From Mesorhizobium sp. Pch-S (lineage in GTDB: Bacteria; Pseudomonadota; Alphaproteobacteria; Rhizobiales; Rhizobiaceae), in assembly GCF_004136315.1 (NCBI RefSeq), contig NZ_CP029562.1, positions 5,355,501-5,419,500 of the forward strand: a DNA stretch of 64,000 bases, read 5' to 3'. The translations under genes and the position numbers were made by a program. Position 1 is the stretch's first letter, and each line of letters begins with the position of its first letter. Shown piece after piece: positions 46,329-53,372 of the stretch. The notes beneath the pieces are model-generated. The model was not told where the DNA came from. It made no database searches and saw only the letters and a list, made by a program, of their open reading frames with translations.

Positions 46329-47545
46329 TTACAGCGCGTTGGCGATCGCCTGGAACACGTCGATCGCTTCATATTCCATCGCGCCACCGCTGTTGTTGTA
46401 GTCGGCATAGGCCGAGGTCTTGGCAATCACCACCTTGCGCGCGGGGTTCACATAGATGAATTGACCATAGATGCCGATCGCCGCGAAGTCGCCTTGCGGT
46501 TTGCCGGGGATCCACCATTGGTAACCGTAGCCGAACGGAATACCGGCGGCGGGGTCCTCACGACCCGGCATCAGATAGGTGCGTCCGGCGTCACCGAGGC
46601 ATGCACCCATTCGGCCGGCACGATCTGCTCGCCCTTCCAGTTGCGGCCCTCGTTGAGATAGAGCAAGCCGAAGCGGGCATAGTCGCGCAAGACCGCGTTC
46701 AGGCCGCCCGCCGCCAATGTTTCCTTCTTCTGGTCGATCAGCCAGTAAGCGTCGGCCTCTGGGCCGAGTCTGGACCACAGTCTTTCCTTGAAATAGTCGG
46801 GCAAGGGTTTGCCGGTTGCCCCCTCGAGGATCATGCCGAGCACCTGTGTGTCGGCTGAGACGTAGCGGTTGAAGCTGCCTTGTGGCCGTTCGTTCTTCAG
46901 ATGTGCGGTGAAGTCGTTCACCGAACCCGTGAGGATCTGGATGATGTAGCGCACGATATCGGAATTGAGATCGCCGTAATCCTCATTGAAGCCGATGCCG
47001 GACGACATCTGCAGCACGTTCTTGACCGTGACACCCTTGTAGCCGCCCTCGGCCAGCAACGGTGCGTATTTATCGACCGGATCCTCCAGCCTGATCAGAC
47101 CGTCGGCAACGGCATTGCCGACGAGGAAGGAAATGGTCGACTTCGACACCGACATGGCGATCGACTGCGTCCCGGCAGTGTTGCCGCGCCGGTACTCCTC
47201 ATGGACGATCTTGCCGTCCTTGATCACGAGCAGGCCGGTGGTCTGTGTCCTTTCGATCCAGTCGGCGACCCTGCGGGTCTCGCCTGCGGAGACATAGGCT
47301 TCCGGCAGTGGTCTTTCTGCCCGTTGAAGTTCGCTCACCTCCGGGCCGTGTTCGACCCGAACGGCGGGATAGAGTCTATACAGCGAGCGGAAATTCTCAT
47401 CGATGACGTCCGGCTTGAACGCGTTCGCATAGATGTAGACGGCGTGCAGTTCTCTGATCTTCTGGCGAAAGATGAAGCCGCCGACCAGCGCGACGGCAAC
47501 GAGCAGAAGAACGACGCGCAGCATCCAGCGCCAGAAAGTCCGCAT
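46329..47545 (-). pseudogene. Beta-lactamase-fold serine hydrolase, one-base frameshift
   Basis: About 405 residues if repaired. An N-terminal anchor (MRTFWRWMLRVVLLLVAVAL) is followed by a class C beta-lactamase/DD-peptidase fold: the SxxK nucleophile in SIAMSVSKSTISFL, and the C-terminal GYGYQWWIPG and IYGQFIYVNPARKVVIAKTS. The frame breaks at about 46577: the first frame stops after VTPDAPI, and YLMPGREDPAAGIPFGYGYQWW continues in another frame. One added base restores it. Start chosen at 47545 because GGAGGA lies five bases upstream. These proteins are usually esterases rather than true beta-lactamases. Confidence 0.85.
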
Positions 47546-47725
47546 CAAGTCCTCCGCCATGTCGAAACTGCATGGGTTTCGATCGAATTGGGATGAAGTT
47601 GACTCCACACCGGTCCGGCCTGTCAATGTGCCGCTGCGCCAGGCAACTATCCCCTGTCGGAAATCGGCTTGAATGCGCTGGGCACGTCTGCCAAAACGGT
47701 TGCGAAACAGAAGGAAGGCCGGCCC

Positions 47726-47962
47726 GTGAAGACGTTTTTTGTGCAGTTCAAGTGCGAACTCGGCAAGGCCTATGAGGTGGCCGCCGCGCTTGCCGACGCT
47801 GAGCTCGCCTCCGAGATCTATTCGACTGCCGGCCACTACGATCTGCTTGCGAAATTCTACATCGACGATGACCAGGACATCGGCCACTTCGTCAACGAGA
47901 AGGTGCAGATCATTCCCGGTATCTCCGACACTTTCACGACGGTGACTTTCCGGGCATTTTAG
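47726..47962 (+). CDS. Stand-alone Lrp/AsnC ligand-binding (RAM) domain protein
   Basis: 78 residues from a GTG at 47726 with AAGGAAGG upstream. It holds only the RAM sensory domain (MKTFFVQFKCELGKAYEVAAALADAELASEIYSTAGHYDLLAKFYIDDDQDIGHFVNEKVQIIPGI) and no DNA-binding part. Stand-alone RAM proteins may bind amino acids or modify Lrp partners. It precedes the ATP-grasp operon by 170 bases in the same direction. Confidence 0.85.
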   Translation: MKTFFVQFKCELGKAYEVAAALADAELASEIYSTAGHYDLLAKFYIDDDQDIGHFVNEKVQIIPGISDTFTTVTFRAF

Positions 47963-48131
47963 GCCACGGTAAACTGCACGCCGAATAAGCACGCATTGCC
48001 CAGGAAGCTGTTTTGCCGCCTGCCTATCGGGCAATCTTGATGGCCAGGCTGCTGTAACGATGCAAATTGCCGATTGCGCTTGATTTTCTTCTCCGACGCC
48101 AGTTGAAATGGTGTCAGAGGGGAGTACGCGT

Positions 48132-49544
48132 TTGGCAGCTTTCGATGAGATGCTTCCGGAAACGACCGGGCTGAGGAGACCATACTCGGCATATGATCGC
48201 TGGCTGAAAGAACAAGATCCAGGCCGACTTACACAGAAGATGGAAGATGCGGAGCGCGTCTTCCGCAAAACCGGCATCACCTTTGCCGTCTATGGCGAGC
48301 AGGAGGCTTCGGAACGCCTCATTCCCTTCGACATCGTGCCGCGCATCATTTCGGGCCAGGAATGGCGTCGCCTGGCGCTGGGTATCGAGCAGCGGGTACA
48401 GGCACTGAATGCATTCCTGGATGACATCTATCATCGCCAGGAGATCCTGCGGGCAGGGCGCGTTCCCAAACAGCTGATCGCAGCCAATGAGGCATTTCTG
48501 CCGGAGATGATCGGTGTGCGGCCTCCGGCCGGCGTCTACACGCATATCATCGGCGTCGACATCGTGCGCATCAGCGAAAACGAATTCTATGTGCTGGAGG
48601 ACAATGCCCGCACGCCGTCTGGTGTCTCGTACATGCTGGAGAACCGTGAGACGATGATGCAGCTCTTTCCCGAGCTGTTCCAGCAGATCAAGGTGCGGCC
48701 CGTCGAGAACTACCCTGCGCTGCTCAGGCAATCCCTGGCTGCCGTGAAGCCCAGAGGCGTCGAAGGAATGCCGACCATCGCGGTGCTGACGCCGGGCATC
48801 TACAACTCCGCCTATTATGAACACGCTTTCCTGGCCGACCAGATGGGCGTGCAACTGGTCGAAGGGCCGGATCTGCGTGTCGTCGACGGTCATGTCGCGA
48901 TGCGTACCACGGAGGGCTACAAGCAGATCGACGTGCTCTATCGCCGCGTCGACGATGCGTTCCTGGATCCGCTGACCTTCCGGCCGGATTCCGCACTTGG
49001 CGTGCCGGGCATCATGGATGTCTACCGCGCCGGCAACATCACCATCGCCAATGCGCCCGGCACCGGCATATCCGACGACAAGGCGATTTACTCCTACATG
49101 CCGGAGATCGTCGAGTTCTACACCGGCCGCAAGCCGATCCTGGGCAATATCCCAACTTGGCGCTGCTCTGAGCCGGACAGCCTGAAATATGTCCAGGAAC
49201 ACATCTCGGAACTGGTCATCAAGGAAGTGCACGGGTCGGGCGGCTACGGCATGCTGGTCGGTCCCGCGGCAACCAAGAAGGAATGCGAGGAGTTCGCCAA
49301 GAAACTCGCCGCCAAGCCCGCCAACTACATCGCCCAACCGACGCTGGCGCTCTCGACCTGTCCGATCATGACCGAGAAGGGCCTAGCGCCGCGCCATGTC
49401 GATCTCAGGCCCTATGTGCTTGTCTCCGATCGCATCCAGCTGGTGCCTGGCGGGCTGACACGTGTGGCGCTGAAGGAAGGTTCACTGGTCGTGAATTCTT
49501 CGCAGGGAGGAGGCACAAAAGATACATGGGTGCTGGATGACTAG
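48132..49544 (+). CDS. Circularly permuted ATP-grasp protein (amidoligase type)
   Basis: About 470 residues of the permuted ATP-grasp family (DUF404/DUF407): GLRRPYSAYDRWLKEQDPGRL, FDIVPRIISGQEWRRLALGIEQRVQALNAFL, EDNARTPSGVSYMLENRE and EVHGSGGYGMLVGP are characteristic. Published genomics links this family with alpha-E and transglutaminase-like proteins as a peptide-ligating and processing set; the product is unknown. A TTG at 48132 has GGGGAG just upstream; an ATG at 48108 is the alternative. The next operon gene (alpha-E) is pushed about 500 bases away by an inserted element. Confidence 0.9.
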   Translation: MAAFDEMLPETTGLRRPYSAYDRWLKEQDPGRLTQKMEDAERVFRKTGITFAVYGEQEASERLIPFDIVPRIISGQEWRRLALGIEQRVQALNAFLDDIYHRQEILRAGRVPKQLIAANEAFLPEMIGVRPPAGVYTHIIGVDIVRISENEFYVLEDNARTPSGVSYMLENRETMMQLFPELFQQIKVRPVENYPALLRQSLAAVKPRGVEGMPTIAVLTPGIYNSAYYEHAFLADQMGVQLVEGPDLRVVDGHVAMRTTEGYKQIDVLYRRVDDAFLDPLTFRPDSALGVPGIMDVYRAGNITIANAPGTGISDDKAIYSYMPEIVEFYTGRKPILGNIPTWRCSEPDSLKYVQEHISELVIKEVHGSGGYGMLVGPAATKKECEEFAKKLAAKPANYIAQPTLALSTCPIMTEKGLAPRHVDLRPYVLVSDRIQLVPGGLTRVALKEGSLVVNSSQGGGTKDTWVLDD

Positions 49545-49551
49545 TGGCAGG

Positions 49552-50024
49552 TCGGCAGTCGGCAGTCGGCAGTCGGTTGCAGACCATGAGCAGCCGAGCG
49601 ATCATGTGGATCACAAGATCGGATCGTATCGCGACCTGAGGGTCTGGAACCTTGCTATCGAATTGGCAGTAAATTGCTACGAGCACACCAGAGGTTTTCC
49701 GCATTCTGAATTGTACGGGCTTACATCGCAGTTGCGCGTTCTGCCACTTCCATAGCGGCTAATATCGCTGAAGGGTATGGCCGGCAAAATACAGGCTCAT
49801 ATGTTCAATTTCTTCGGGTGGCTCAGGGCTCGCTCAAGGAGTTCGAAACACACATCATAATTTCCACCCGTGTCGGTTTTCTCGATGCGGAAGCAGAACG
49901 GCGCTTCCTGGTGCAAGCCGACGATATTGGTCGCATGCTTCGTGCGTTGATCCGCAGCCTACAACGGACAAGTTGATGTTATATGCTCCGAAATCCCTTC
50001 GATCTGCCGACTGCCGACTGCCGA
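49552..50024. repeat. Inverted-repeat element with heptamer ends
   Basis: The left end (49552-49572) and right end (50004-50024) are perfect 21-bp inverted repeats, each made of the 7-base unit TCGGCAG three times in a row (the right end on the other strand). Partial extra units flank both sides. Between the arms are 431 bases holding one broken gene. The unit sits between the ATP-grasp and alpha-E genes, which normally adjoin. No target-site duplication was seen. Confidence 0.85.
49606..49976 (+). pseudogene. Four-helix-bundle protein (S23 / rRNA intervening sequence family), frameshifted
   Basis: Repaired length about 123 residues, the size of the family: KIGSYRDLRVWNLAIELAVNCYEHTRGFPHSELYGLTSQLR, then in another frame SATSIAANIAEGYGRQNTGSYVQFLRVAQGSLKEFETHIIIS to the stop at 49976. 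The break is at about 49737: CGC-GTT needs one more base. The likely start is an in-frame GTG at 49606, near the usual family start (a longer reading from 49537 would run through the heptamer repeats). Homologues are found inside 23S rRNA intervening sequences and as free genes; the fold is also that of the Avd protein of diversity-generating retroelements. No reverse transcriptase is nearby. Confidence 0.85.
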
Positions 50025-50046
50025 TTGCCGCCGGGAGACCCTGCTA

Positions 50047-50988
50047 ATGCTTCTCGGACGCACCGCCAACGGCCTCTACTGGATGAACCGCTACATCGAA
50101 CGGGCGGAGAATATGGCGCGGCTGGTCGATGCCGGGCTGCGCATGGCGCTGACGCGCACCCAGGATGCCTCGGAAGAATGGCATTCGGTGGTGATCAGCG
50201 CCGGTTCCGATGTCGCTTTCGCGCAGAAATATTCGGAGTTCACGGCGGCCAACGTCGCCGACTTCCTGCTGCGCGACACGTCGAACCCGTCCAGCGTCAT
50301 GTCGTCGATCGAGACGGCGCGCAACAATGCACGCATGGTCCGCACCGCGCTGACGCGCGAGACCTGGGAAAGCACCAACGAGGCCTGGATGGCGCTGAAG
50401 CGCATGCTGGCCAGGCCGATCGACCAGCGCGACCTGCCTTCGATGCTCGATGCGGTCAAACGCGAGACGGCCTTGATCCGGGGGTCGCTCTTCGGCACGC
50501 AACTGCGCAACGAGATCTTCGATTTCTCGCAGCTCGGCACCTACCTCGAACGGGCTGACAACACTGCGCGTATTCTCGATGTGAAGTACTACGTGCTGTT
50601 GCCGTCGATCTCCTGGGTTGGCTCGACCCTCGACAATTACCAGTGGGAATCGATCTTGCGCTCGGTGTCGGCGCACCGCTCGTATCGCTGGGTCTACGAG
50701 GCGGAGTACAAGCCGACGAACATCGCCGACTATCTGATCGTCAATGCGCGCATGCCACGCTCGCTGACTTTCTGCTATCGATTCATCCTGGAACACCTGA
50801 ATTTCCTGTGCGGCGACTACGGTGCGCGTCACGCCAGCCATGCGACAGCCGAGCGAATCCATGAGATGCTGAAGGTCGGCTCCATCAAGGACGTGTTCGA
50901 CGCCGGGCTGCATGAATTCCTCGGCGATTTCATCACCGAGAATACACGGCTGGGCGATCAGATCGCTGAAGACTACCGGTTCTATTAG
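50047..50988 (+). CDS. Alpha-E domain protein
   Basis: 313 residues, nearly all helical (DUF403, alpha-E): MLLGRTANGLYWMNRYIERAENMARLVDAGLRM, and further on FLERADNTARILDVKYY-like YLERADNTARILDVKYYVLLPS. The family always travels with permuted ATP-grasp and transglutaminase-like genes. Its function is not known, but a scaffold or substrate-binding role in peptide modification has been proposed from context. Confidence 0.92.
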   Translation: MLLGRTANGLYWMNRYIERAENMARLVDAGLRMALTRTQDASEEWHSVVISAGSDVAFAQKYSEFTAANVADFLLRDTSNPSSVMSSIETARNNARMVRTALTRETWESTNEAWMALKRMLARPIDQRDLPSMLDAVKRETALIRGSLFGTQLRNEIFDFSQLGTYLERADNTARILDVKYYVLLPSISWVGSTLDNYQWESILRSVSAHRSYRWVYEAEYKPTNIADYLIVNARMPRSLTFCYRFILEHLNFLCGDYGARHASHATAERIHEMLKVGSIKDVFDAGLHEFLGDFITENTRLGDQIAEDYRFY

Positions 50989-51057
50989 GCGAACTGAGAT
51001 GAAACCTGTGATTTCGACCCGTCCTGATATGAACGCAACACGTTCCAGTTGGCCATC

Positions 51058-51855
51058 ATGCGTTTGAAGATCACGCACCGGACCGAATACAGCTACGACA
51101 CTCCGGTCAGATATGCTTTGCAGCGCCTGCGGCTTGTGCCTGGCTCAGGCCCGACACAGACAGTGCGCTCGTGGGAGCTGCAGATCGAGGGGGCCAAGGA
51201 AGAAGTGCACTTCCGGGACCAGTTCGCCAACGACACGCGCCTGGTCAGCGTCGAAGGGGCGTCGCATCTCATCGCAATCGAGGCGGTCGGTGAAGTGGAG
51301 ACGATCGACAAAGCGGGTGTGTATGGACCACACCAGGGCTTCGCGCCCCTGTGGCTGTTCCTGCGCGAAACACCGCTGACGACGGCGGGCGATGGTATTC
51401 GTGGTCTCGTCGCGGGCCTTGGCGAAGGCCCCGAGATCGAACGGCTGCACAGGCTGATGGCGCTGGTGCGCGATCGGATCAACTATCTGCCGGGCAGCAC
51501 CAGCGCCGAAACGGTGGCTGAGGAAGCGCTCAGCCTTGGCACTGGTGTATGCCAGGACCACAGCCATGTTTTCATTTCGGCGGCACGGCTTCTTGGCCTG
51601 CCAGCCCGGTACATCAGCGGTTATCTGATGATGGATGGCGTTTCGGAGCAGGTGGCGAGCCACGCCTGGGCCGAAGCGCATGTCGCCGGGTTGGGCTGGG
51701 TGTCGTTCGACGCTGCCAACGGTATTTCGCCGGACGAGCGTTATGTTCGCGTGGCGAGCGGTCGCGACTATCGCGACGCGATGCCGGTTTCCGGCATTCG
51801 GCTGGGCCAGGGCCGCGAGCAACTCGCTGTTTCCATCACCGTCGTGCAACAATAG
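51058..51855 (+). CDS. Transglutaminase-like cysteine protease family protein
   Basis: 265 residues. The N-terminal domain begins MRLKITHRTEYSYDTPVRYALQRLRLVPGSGP; the catalytic triad lies in GTGVCQDHSHVFISAARLLGLPARYISGYL (Cys), ASHAWAEAHVAGLGW (His) and SFDAANG (Asp). It is third of the ATP-grasp/alpha-E/transglutaminase set and probably cuts or transfers the peptide bonds the ligase makes. An upstream TTG at 51049 is a possible start. Confidence 0.9.
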   Translation: MRLKITHRTEYSYDTPVRYALQRLRLVPGSGPTQTVRSWELQIEGAKEEVHFRDQFANDTRLVSVEGASHLIAIEAVGEVETIDKAGVYGPHQGFAPLWLFLRETPLTTAGDGIRGLVAGLGEGPEIERLHRLMALVRDRINYLPGSTSAETVAEEALSLGTGVCQDHSHVFISAARLLGLPARYISGYLMMDGVSEQVASHAWAEAHVAGLGWVSFDAANGISPDERYVRVASGRDYRDAMPVSGIRLGQGREQLAVSITVVQQ

Positions 51856-51959
51856 CCGCGCAAGCGAGCAAATAGCGCCGGCGCGGTCTTGCGTGCGGCT
51901 GCCCAGCACCATAATGCACCCGTTAATCATTATCGGACCGAGCTCAAGGAGGAGGCGGT

Positions 51960-53372
51960 ATGGATAGCGAAGAATTCCGCGCGTGGTCGCGGCGCGCTGC
52001 GGACTGGGGCGCGGATTACCGCGACACCGTGCGCGACAGGCCGGTGCGGCCGCAGGTGGCCCCCGGATCGACCCTGCAGCAGATCGCGGCATCGCCGCCA
52101 GAGCAGGCGGAGGCGATGGAGGCGATCTTCGCCGATTTCGAGGCCAAGATCATGCCTGGCATGACGCATTGGCAGCATCCGCGCTTCTTTGCCTATTTCC
52201 CGGCAAACGCTGCGCGTGTTTCCGTCATCGCCGAATACCTGGTGACCGCGGTCGCCGCGCAATGCATGCTGTGGCAGACTTCGCCTGCCGCGACCGAACT
52301 CGAAACAAAAATGATCGACTGGCTGCGGCAGGCGCTCGGCCTGCCGCAAGGGTTCTCCGGGGTTATCCAGGATTCGGCTTCCTCCGCCACGCTGGCTGCC
52401 ATACTCACCATGCGGGAGAAGGCACTTGACTGGGACGGCAACAGGAAAGGCCTGCCCGGGCAGAAGCGCCTGCGCATCTACAGCTCGAACCAGGTCCACA
52501 CGTCGATCGATCGCGCTGTCTGGGTCGCCGGCATCGGTGACGAGAACCTCGTCCGGATCCCCACGACAGGCGCGCTGCGTTCCATGGATGCAGCCGCACT
52601 GGAGGCTGCGATCCTCTCCGACAGGGAAGCAGGGTTCCTTCCAGCAGGCATCGTCGCGTGTGTCGGAGGTACCAGCACCGGCGGCACCGACGACATTGCC
52701 GCAGTGGTGGAAATCGCCCGTCGTCACGATCTCTACCTGCATGTCGATGCCGCATGGGCAGGTGCTGCGATGATCTGTCCGGAGTATCGACATTTCTGGA
52801 ATGGGATCGAACAGGCCGATTCCATCGTCTTCAATCCGCACAAATGGCTGGGCGCCAGTTTTGACTGTTCGATCCAGTTCGTGCGCGATCCGGACAGCCA
52901 CGTGCGCACACTGGCCATCAAACCCGAATATCTGAAGACACACGGCCACGACGGCGTCGTCAATTATTCCGAATGGACTGTGACGCTGGGCAGGCGGTTC
53001 CGTGCGCTGAAGCTGTGGTTCCTGATGCGCGCGCATGGGCTGGAAGGCCTGCGCAGCATGATCCGCAACCATGTGGATTGGAGTGCCGCCCTGGCGGAGC
53101 GGCTTTCGAAAGAGCCGGATTTCGAACTGGTGACTGCGCCGATGCTGTCGCTGTTCTCGTTCCGCCACCGGGCAGGCGAGGGGCATGACAGCGACGAGCA
53201 CAATCTGCGCCTGGTCAATGCCATCAACGATGATGGCCGCATCTATCTCACACAGACACGTGTCGACGATCAGGTCGCAATCCGTTTCCAGGTCGGGCAG
53301 TTCGAGGCGACGCGGGAAGATGTCGAGGCCGCTTTCGATGTGATTGTCGAGGTCGCTCGCGGCCTTCCATAG
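51960..53372 (+). CDS. PLP-dependent group II decarboxylase (aromatic amino acid decarboxylase family)
   Basis: 470 residues with a strong AAGGAGGAGG ribosome site. The cofactor lysine is in SIVFNPHKWLGASFDCS, with HVDAAWAGAAMICPEYR before it and HWQHPRFFAYFPANAARVSVIAEYL near the start. The family removes the carboxylate from tryptophan, tyrosine or related amino acids; the substrate cannot be read from sequence. It follows the transglutaminase gene by about 100 bases and may belong to the same transcript or stand alone. Confidence 0.93.
   Translation: MDSEEFRAWSRRAADWGADYRDTVRDRPVRPQVAPGSTLQQIAASPPEQAEAMEAIFADFEAKIMPGMTHWQHPRFFAYFPANAARVSVIAEYLVTAVAAQCMLWQTSPAATELETKMIDWLRQALGLPQGFSGVIQDSASSATLAAILTMREKALDWDGNRKGLPGQKRLRIYSSNQVHTSIDRAVWVAGIGDENLVRIPTTGALRSMDAAALEAAILSDREAGFLPAGIVACVGGTSTGGTDDIAAVVEIARRHDLYLHVDAAWAGAAMICPEYRHFWNGIEQADSIVFNPHKWLGASFDCSIQFVRDPDSHVRTLAIKPEYLKTHGHDGVVNYSEWTVTLGRRFRALKLWFLMRAHGLEGLRSMIRNHVDWSAALAERLSKEPDFELVTAPMLSLFSFRHRAGEGHDSDEHNLRLVNAINDDGRIYLTQTRVDDQVAIRFQVGQFEATREDVEAAFDVIVEVARGLP

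Follow-up and report, generated by a model that had tools for sequence, protein, structure and literature searches.

An S23 gene framed by inverted heptad arrays in Mesorhizobium sp. Pch-S, and a possible wider class of hairpin cassettes

The intervening sequence (IVS) in helix 45 of the Coxiella 23S rRNA is closed by a 28-bp stem, carries an S23 open reading frame (ORF) and is excised by RNase III, and the passages of PMC4990558 that describe it also mention tandem copies of the heptamer GACAGAT upstream of that ORF (three in some strains, two in others). Heptameric repeats are known from other bacteria as well: in the sections of PMC4692102 that deal with them, the G-rich unit GGGAATC forms 70 and 75 convergent inverted pairs in two Xanthomonas genomes, and the repeat of Nostoc is GGGGAYT. 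The homing of diversity-generating retroelements (DGRs) needs a hairpin or cruciform at the target, with the structure and not the stem sequence being what matters (excerpts of PMC3240598). Here, we analyzed a locus in a 64,000-nucleotide stretch of Mesorhizobium sp. Pch-S (hereafter the window; positions 5355501-5419500 of NZ_CP029562.1, the one 6.62-Mb contig searched as its genome), in which a broken S23 gene lying within inverted arrays of 7-bp units separates an ATP-grasp gene from an alpha-E gene. To our knowledge, S23 is a family without known function, and its four-helix bundle is likewise without known catalytic function. REPIN-RAYT systems offer a further point of reference, combining dispersed non-coding hairpins with a rare coding partner that has matching ends.

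Our analysis led to several key observations. Arms of this kind accompany most of the S23 genes examined, across several phyla and also within 23S rRNA. One and the same intergenic site can be empty in one relative, hold a gene-less insert in another and an S23 gene in a third, and there are genome pairs with hardly differing flanks in which the gene and its arms differ together. We infer mobility, homing or exchange of S23-heptad cassettes, and hold with moderate confidence that the window feature is a decayed S23-heptad element—a DNA-level hairpin cassette with an Avd-like S23 protein as its presumed binder.

The window locus and related arrays in its genome

The locus comprises the following features, given in window coordinates:

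48108..49544, + strand: circularly permuted ATP-grasp gene, the upstream host gene (PF14403/PF04174, from the ORF list)
49537..49755, + strand: 5' fragment of the S23/four-helix-bundle gene (PF05635 positions 1-36, the Pfam match ending at 49737)
49551..49576, + strand: left heptad arm, (AGTCGGC)n reading inward, a unit that fits the A-R-T-N-G-B-S pattern of S23-flanking arrays
49731..49976, + strand: 3' portion of the S23 gene, read in a different frame (PF05635 positions 35-105, 69.6 bits)
50004..50030, - strand: right heptad arm, the reverse complement of the left, with which it pairs in the RNA fold
50047..50988, + strand: alpha-E domain gene, the downstream host gene (PF04168)
51049..51855, + strand: transglutaminase-like gene, next on the same strand (PF01841/PF08379)

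The original prediction for this DNA had described two perfect 21-bp inverted repeats, each three copies of TCGGCAG and 431 nt apart, around a frameshifted S23 four-helix gene. Both parts of this description are borne out: the perfect arms lie at 49552-49572 and 50004-50024 (21 nt, 100% complementary), with a longer pairing of 24 nt at 96% (49553-49576 / 50007-50030), and PF05635 is split between them over two frames (49630-49737, Pfam positions 1-36; 49731-49943, positions 35-105), this being the single S23 copy in the genome. The left array (from 49551) begins 6 nt past the ATP-grasp stop codon (49544), and 16 nt separate the end of the right array from the alpha-E start. Domain typing took in the S23 pieces and three neighbouring genes. 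S23 is the only family found between the arms, where no HUH (Y1) transposase is present (transposases elsewhere in the genome were not sought), and Rfam returned no match up to E 1 in window positions 47500-52000, the element lying between protein genes and outside rRNA. A stop-free S23 copy occupies the same junction in a relative (G085) and is 90% identical over 77 residues to the window 3' piece; the window element is a decayed member of the S23-heptad class, and, with its S23 gene broken, it is now in effect a gene-less hairpin that separates two genes of the same strand. The RNA fold of the element closes the arms (-202.7 kcal/mol, z -5.6), a result to be expected of any inverted repeat and uninformative on how the arms are used. 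Both in the window (49537-49600) and in a Rhizobiaceae contig (L031, 2731-2790), the reading frame of S23 opens at the 3' end of the ATP-grasp gene and crosses the left arm; since the 5' ORF begins upstream of the arm, the left arm would be translated as ..SAVGSRQS...

Comparable arrays are scattered over the window genome. The 14-mer TCGGCAGTCGGCAG (TCGGCAG twice) has 34 matches and its backward control 0, and three tandem ARTNGBS units give 64 matches at 17 places (the window right arm included; control 0), with 16 array places beyond the window's own. Facing pairs with 19-88 bp between them occur at 11 places, the left member being the ARTNGBS array and the right member its complement in all 11 (outside-in), and none of them holds an S23 gene, because the window copy is the only one in the genome. 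By rough ORF calls, which together with the sequence were the sole basis for judging the arrays intergenic, several elements start a few bases from a stop codon and some gene-less ones sit between seemingly convergent neighbours. Of the 15 elements listed, 9 have a left flank ending in GGC and 9 a right flank beginning with GCC (counted by eye); no target-site duplication is evident by eye in the flanks listed, and empty sites are too divergent in sequence to align.

Arms and proteins of S23 loci

To gain a broader view, we examined S23 genes in a diverse set of 56 related loci, 53 of which were confirmed as S23 and used (L082-L084 were dropped). Exact period-7 arrays of at least 17 nt were present within 150 bp of the gene upstream in 24/53 and downstream in 36/52 loci, compared with 2/482 control windows, and exact arrays of periods 6, 8 and 9 numbered 2, 1 and 0 in total. 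With one exception, the units found fit the inward-pointing ARTNGBS pattern. Degenerate chains of at least three heptads, the kind of inverted repeat that the original prediction had proposed to look for beside S23 genes of other genomes, occur upstream in 40/53 and downstream in 39/51 loci (controls 1/960), counts that are partly circular because the motif was derived from those same loci. In the genus set, which overlaps the diverse set in part and includes the window locus, such chains lie upstream in 56/75, downstream in 70/75, on both sides in 52/75 and on at least one side in 74/75.

The class-wide sample provides a better test. S23 was detected in 16/289 alphaproteobacterial genomes, and 20 loci from 15 of these 16, the window genome excluded, form an unbiased set in which the upstream and downstream arms pair above the 99th percentile of swapped arms at 13/20 loci vs 0/77 shifted places. 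These 13 loci, picked by arm pairing and not by period, show a match of 0.78 at lag 7 and 0.76 at lag 14, compared with 0.20-0.29 at other lags; nine of them have units unlike ARTNGBS (e.g., GGCTTAA, CAGGTAT, GCGTATA, CAGAGNN). The seven failing loci include the three weakest Pfam matches, and the other four have short arms. Chance repeats were rejected as an explanation, backward-pattern controls giving 0 in the genome searches and shifted-place controls 0/77.

Two of the 20 class loci (L361 and L363) lie inside large-subunit (LSU) rRNA on the same strand. Both inserts interrupt a hairpin loop at LSU model position 1218 and have inverted arms of 7-bp period at their ends. Judging from the available passages of PMC4990558, position 1218 would correspond to helix 45, the place of the Coxiella IVS. 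These two inserts and the Coxiella anatomy therefore indicate that the window operon element and S23-type rRNA inserts are built alike, in agreement with the earlier proposal of a shape shared with rRNA intervening sequences. A direction from rRNA to mRNA is not supported; S23 occupies the ATP-grasp|alpha-E junction also in other Hyphomicrobiales (L029, L031) and, as a close relative copy, in G085.

From plasmids of Cyanobacteriota, Azospirillum, Gemmatimonadota and Bacteroidota, 14/31 records were fetched, which left 13 loci once one of two like copies had been set aside. Their arms peak at lag 7 in eight cases and lag 8 in two, two being too short to score and one having none. On two cyanobacterial plasmids (L373, 1291-1972; L379, 1131-1908), cas6 and cas4 of a CRISPR-Cas operon are separated by an S23 gene whose inverted arms have a 7-bp period, and cas1d is annotated beside the CRISPR-Cas operon S23 gene in Anabaena sp. 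90. At four cyanobacterial loci (L050, L056, L061, L069), S23 is followed immediately by a direct array, with inverted arrays lying beyond it; the gene may therefore be located within the 5' arm. Arms of period 8 (AGTAGGGG) instead of 7 characterize one Mesorhizobium S23 group (L163, 1260-1720; L094, L100, L111, L112).

Own arms pair better than swapped arms, with z 13.1 in 51 loci, 9.5 in 68 gene-less junction inserts and 7.2 in 27 nuoC|nuoD loci. In every set, the 5' arm is rich in G (0.35-0.46) and poor in C (0.06-0.15). The innermost heptad is GGG-type more frequently than the rest, in 28/42 vs 17/126 of the others for ARTAGCG arms, 17/40 vs 0/198 for AGTAGGC, 6/12 vs 0/24 for AGTAGTG and 7/28 vs 2/72 for nuoC|nuoD loci elsewhere. 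This order recurs away from the gene in G122, a genome with one S23 match, where 8/8 listed arrays—two of them S23 arms, six located away from S23—end in a GGG-type heptad, and outer heptads are GGG-type in 1/24. Across the genus, solo arrays are commoner where an S23 gene of that unit was fetched (AGTAGGC, median 13 vs 3; AGTAGTG, 6 vs 0; AGTCGGC, two genomes only), medians that ignore relatedness and in which the 'other' genomes include unsampled S23 elements.

From a structural perspective, the S23 protein of the Shinella nuoC|nuoD locus L030 is predicted to form a four-helix bundle with a predicted local distance difference test score (pLDDT) of 95, and S23 matches the solved structures 2gsc and 2rld. 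A relationship to Avd, the accessory protein of DGRs, is suggested by a profile match (phrog_3206, E 3.2e-8) and by Foldseek against 4dwl (TM 0.78, probability 1.00, E 0.027), but the score against the DGR-Avd equivalog, 22.6 bits, falls far short of its cut-off of 80. Given this kinship and the need of DGRs for a hairpin, it is reasonable to suppose, by analogy, that the S23 protein binds its own heptad hairpin. A role in a defence system was considered and rejected, PADLOC giving no match for two S23 proteins.

Occupancy of fixed sites among relatives

The original prediction had called the ATP-grasp and alpha-E genes normally adjacent. Alpha-E was found in 115/119 genus genomes and 114 Mesorhizobium junctions were read (a contig end interrupts L252). 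Of these, 19 are empty sites, for which a comparison had been proposed at the outset, with 21 bp between the genes and no heptad; 68 hold gene-less inserts of 72-185 bp and 27 hold S23 inserts of 462-503 bp, the window included. The earlier description is therefore true only in part. Instead of one spacing and one gene kept in all close relatives with no repeats elsewhere, we found variable junctions and the 17 array places mentioned above. Among the 68 gene-less inserts, 53 have a chain of at least three heptads in one arm, 39 have at least two in both arms, and 10 lack even a chain of two. Two gene-less inserts (L144 and L178) seem to consist of mixed 7/8-bp period arrays (GGCAGTAAGGCAGTAGGGCAGTA..) that the heptad motif missed.

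Pairs of genomes with similar flanks illustrate how gene and arms differ together. At ATP-grasp|alpha-E, G053 and the window have flanks 90-92% identical, S23 pieces 65-70% identical and other heptads; G085 has flanks 86-88% identical to those of the window and the same kind of element, at 80.5% on the nucleotide level and 90% for the 3' piece. At nuoC|nuoD, the flanks of G079 and G065 are 93% identical over ~1.1 kb each, while their S23 genes are 56% identical; the arms are AATGGTG in G079 and AGTAGTG in G065, the G079 gene reaches at best 60% identity to any of the set, and the difference between the two genomes is bordered by the stop and start codons. The suggestion of a small mobile cassette can thus be kept for the cassette, in view of the arrays elsewhere in the genome and the apparent replacement between similar flanks, its mobility being our interpretation; taken together, the original prediction is partly supported.

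Sorted by both flanks, the 53 diverse loci include 27 that occupy nuoC|nuoD and 7 that occupy ATP-grasp|alpha-E. The nuoC|nuoD cassettes (L030, 2733-3227, and 26 further loci) come from Bradyrhizobium, Bosea, Methylobacterium, Hyphomonadaceae and others, and at this site the units vary among taxa and both arms of a locus agree. Three further sites (A, B and C) were also followed. Site C carries gene-less arrays in exactly 5/30 genomes, which are five close relatives, with at least three unit types among them: AGTCGGC in two genomes, mixed ARTNGCG/GTG in two and 7/8-bp AGTAGGG/AGTAGGC in one. At site B, arrays are present in 4/24 genomes, namely four of the five close relatives, and in neither G085 nor 19 others. 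The search at site A retrieved only the window genome owing to a poor left anchor, and site A was dropped from the comparison; a G037 copy with AGTAGTG units, read directly, looks like site A.

Weighing the readings against each other and against described systems

The S23-heptad element spans ~460-500 bp and consists of a G-rich inward array of 7-bp period, an S23 gene and the inverted array. Its arms would act as a DNA hairpin or cruciform, to which the Avd-like S23 protein would bind; insertion or exchange would favour tolerant spots beside stop codons, as well as places where a hairpin of this kind is already present; and gene-less derivatives would either use the S23 protein in trans or be relics. 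A broader and distinctly more tentative proposal, which we regard as possible but doubtful, is that S23 genes together with inverted arrays of 7-bp period make up a single bacterial class of hairpin-homing mobile elements, with rRNA IVSs, operon cassettes, plasmid copies and the dispersed heptameric repeats of many genomes as habitats or gene-less derivatives. In that case, S23 would read the hairpin and drive the copying or exchange of cassettes at pre-existing hairpins, the unit being rewritten when the S23 type changes.

A number of observations weigh against a mobile DNA cassette. The 73 S23 genes fetched from the genus, a subset of the matches, fall into five groups of orthologous flanks, with each unit class confined to one site. 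Vertical inheritance dominates among these copies, and active S23 transposition as the main mode within Mesorhizobium was rejected. The close fit between unit and S23 clade in the genus (10 changes, the minimum being 10 and the shuffled mean 40.7) is confounded with site, because each unit class is found at one site. On a tree of the flanks, the three junction states change at least 34 times, of which 4 to 9 per state are forced by starred branches. This tree is weak (500 columns, 18/111 inner branches starred) and the S23 state is hardly more clustered on it than when shuffled (61/500 as low), so the 34 changes may be inflated and fast turnover is indistinguishable from a poor tree. Arm pairing is not specific everywhere either: in the gene-less ATGCCATATTC family own arms do no better than swapped ones (z 1.0) and there is no covariation, in 25 ARTAGCG-type junction S23 inserts own arms score only slightly above swapped ones (25.0 vs 23.9; 8/1000 shuffles as high), and no more than 2/13 plasmid loci pass the swapped-arm threshold (99th percentile), several of the cyanobacterial arms resembling one another. 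Arrays and S23 genes also co-occur weakly across the 289 alphaproteobacteria: 5/8 genomes with ARTNGBSx4 arrays lack a detectable S23 and 13/16 S23 genomes lack such an array (both 3, arrays only 5, S23 only 13; Fisher p 0.0066), the class-wide degenerate array search having given a few backward-pattern matches. A recent jump of the element alone was rejected in Calothrix, where two like S23 copies on two plasmids share several neighbouring genes, an integrase included, and a phage origin was rejected after one S23 query found no match in 50,697 phage records. Finally, no target-site duplication, catalytic residues or transposition event were seen. ARTNGBS arrays in genomes without a detectable S23 were found in G262 (many), G361, G402, G243 and G123.

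That the selected structure is a transcript stem, at which RNase III would separate the ATP-grasp part of the message from the alpha-E part, as in rRNA, with S23 as a passenger, we consider unlikely. The anatomy of the two 23S rRNA S23 inserts, the strong RNA stem (z -5.6) and the co-directional upstream gene in 40/52 loci (by a rough longest-ORF rule) agree with such an RNA-level IVS, as does the RNase III-excised Coxiella IVS with its strain-variable GACAGAT heptamers (passages of PMC4990558); many of the 40 co-directional loci, however, represent one site, 27/53 being at nuoC|nuoD, and some gene-less elements lie between seemingly convergent ORFs (rough calls). If the transcript stem were under selection, G.U mismatches should outnumber A.C ones, but on the S23-coding/operon strand there is no such excess: the counts are 164 vs 193 (p(GU>AC) 0.94) over four partly overlapping sets (59 vs 66, 45 vs 55, 10 vs 22 and 50 vs 50), and RNA-level selection, read in this way, gives no signal. 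It is because this excess is missing that a DNA-level hairpin cassette is favoured.

Evolution driven by the host without any mobility appears to us rather unlikely: here, vertically inherited regulatory or terminator-like hairpins would have a resident S23 regulator, polymerase slippage would build the arrays and template switching at quasi-palindromes—a mechanism that keeps arms alike—would maintain them. The few fixed S23 sites and the agreement of both arms in a unit that varies among taxa at one site are what such a process would leave behind, and a proposal that slippage accounts for how common heptameric repeats are in bacteria is on record (in the part of PMC4692102 concerned). Against it stand S23 genes with only 56-70% identity between flanks of 90-93% identity, the stop and start codons marking the borders at nuoC|nuoD, the occurrence of at least three unit types at site C among five close relatives with none in 25 other genomes, and the arrays of G122, which share the positional unit order of its S23 arms. 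An ordinary simple-sequence repeat, or an unrelated miniature inverted-repeat transposable element or repetitive extragenic palindrome, that merely lies beside a pseudogene could draw on the heptameric repeats and convergent pairs known in Xanthomonas and Nostoc, S23 having 0 occurrences in the accessible text of PMC4692102; the enrichment beside S23 over the controls already contradicts an accidental association, which is very improbable.

The S23 ORFs of fragmented 23S rRNA and the scattered heptameric repeats—puzzles that seem to have been studied apart so far—appear to be parts of one element. On this view, S23 would gain a candidate ligand in the heptad hairpin, and heptameric repeats would gain a candidate partner gene. 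If true, this would help to explain why IVSs recur at the same rRNA helices, the class occupying few tolerant sites elsewhere too (ATP-grasp|alpha-E and nuoC|nuoD). REPIN-RAYT systems share with S23 elements the dispersed gene-less hairpins, the rare coding partner and the matching ends, but there is no HUH/Y1 transposase inside the S23 element, and S23 is a four-helix bundle.

Compared with the Avd of DGRs (PDB 4dwl and 8ub7; excerpts of PMC3240598), S23 shows a profile and fold match, and hairpin-forming inverted repeats accompany both; the difference is that the hairpin of the S23 element is long and heptad-periodic. The heptameric repeats of Xanthomonas and Nostoc resemble the arrays described here in their G-rich 7-bp units, mostly intergenic position and variable length and, in Xanthomonas, in their convergent pairs, as far as the relevant sections of PMC4692102 go; the window genome fits this description with 17 places and 11 facing pairs, all + on the left and - on the right. 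In contrast to those repeats, the present arrays go with S23 genes or with gene-less copies that have the same architecture. S23 has 0 occurrences in the accessible parts of PMC4692102 and PMC4679880, and among the matches listed no literature ties S23 genes in general to 7-bp inverted arrays, the passages of PMC4990558 reporting heptamers in one IVS. With S23-type rRNA IVSs, the window element shares the S23 ORF (frameshifted in the window, stop-free in G085), terminal inverted repeats that, as in Coxiella, close a ~430-nt loop into a stem, and heptamer arrays, present in Coxiella (in the passages cited), L361 and L363 and not part of the usual IVS definition. It differs from them in that the window copy is located between protein genes and its gene-less relatives are dispersed over the genome.

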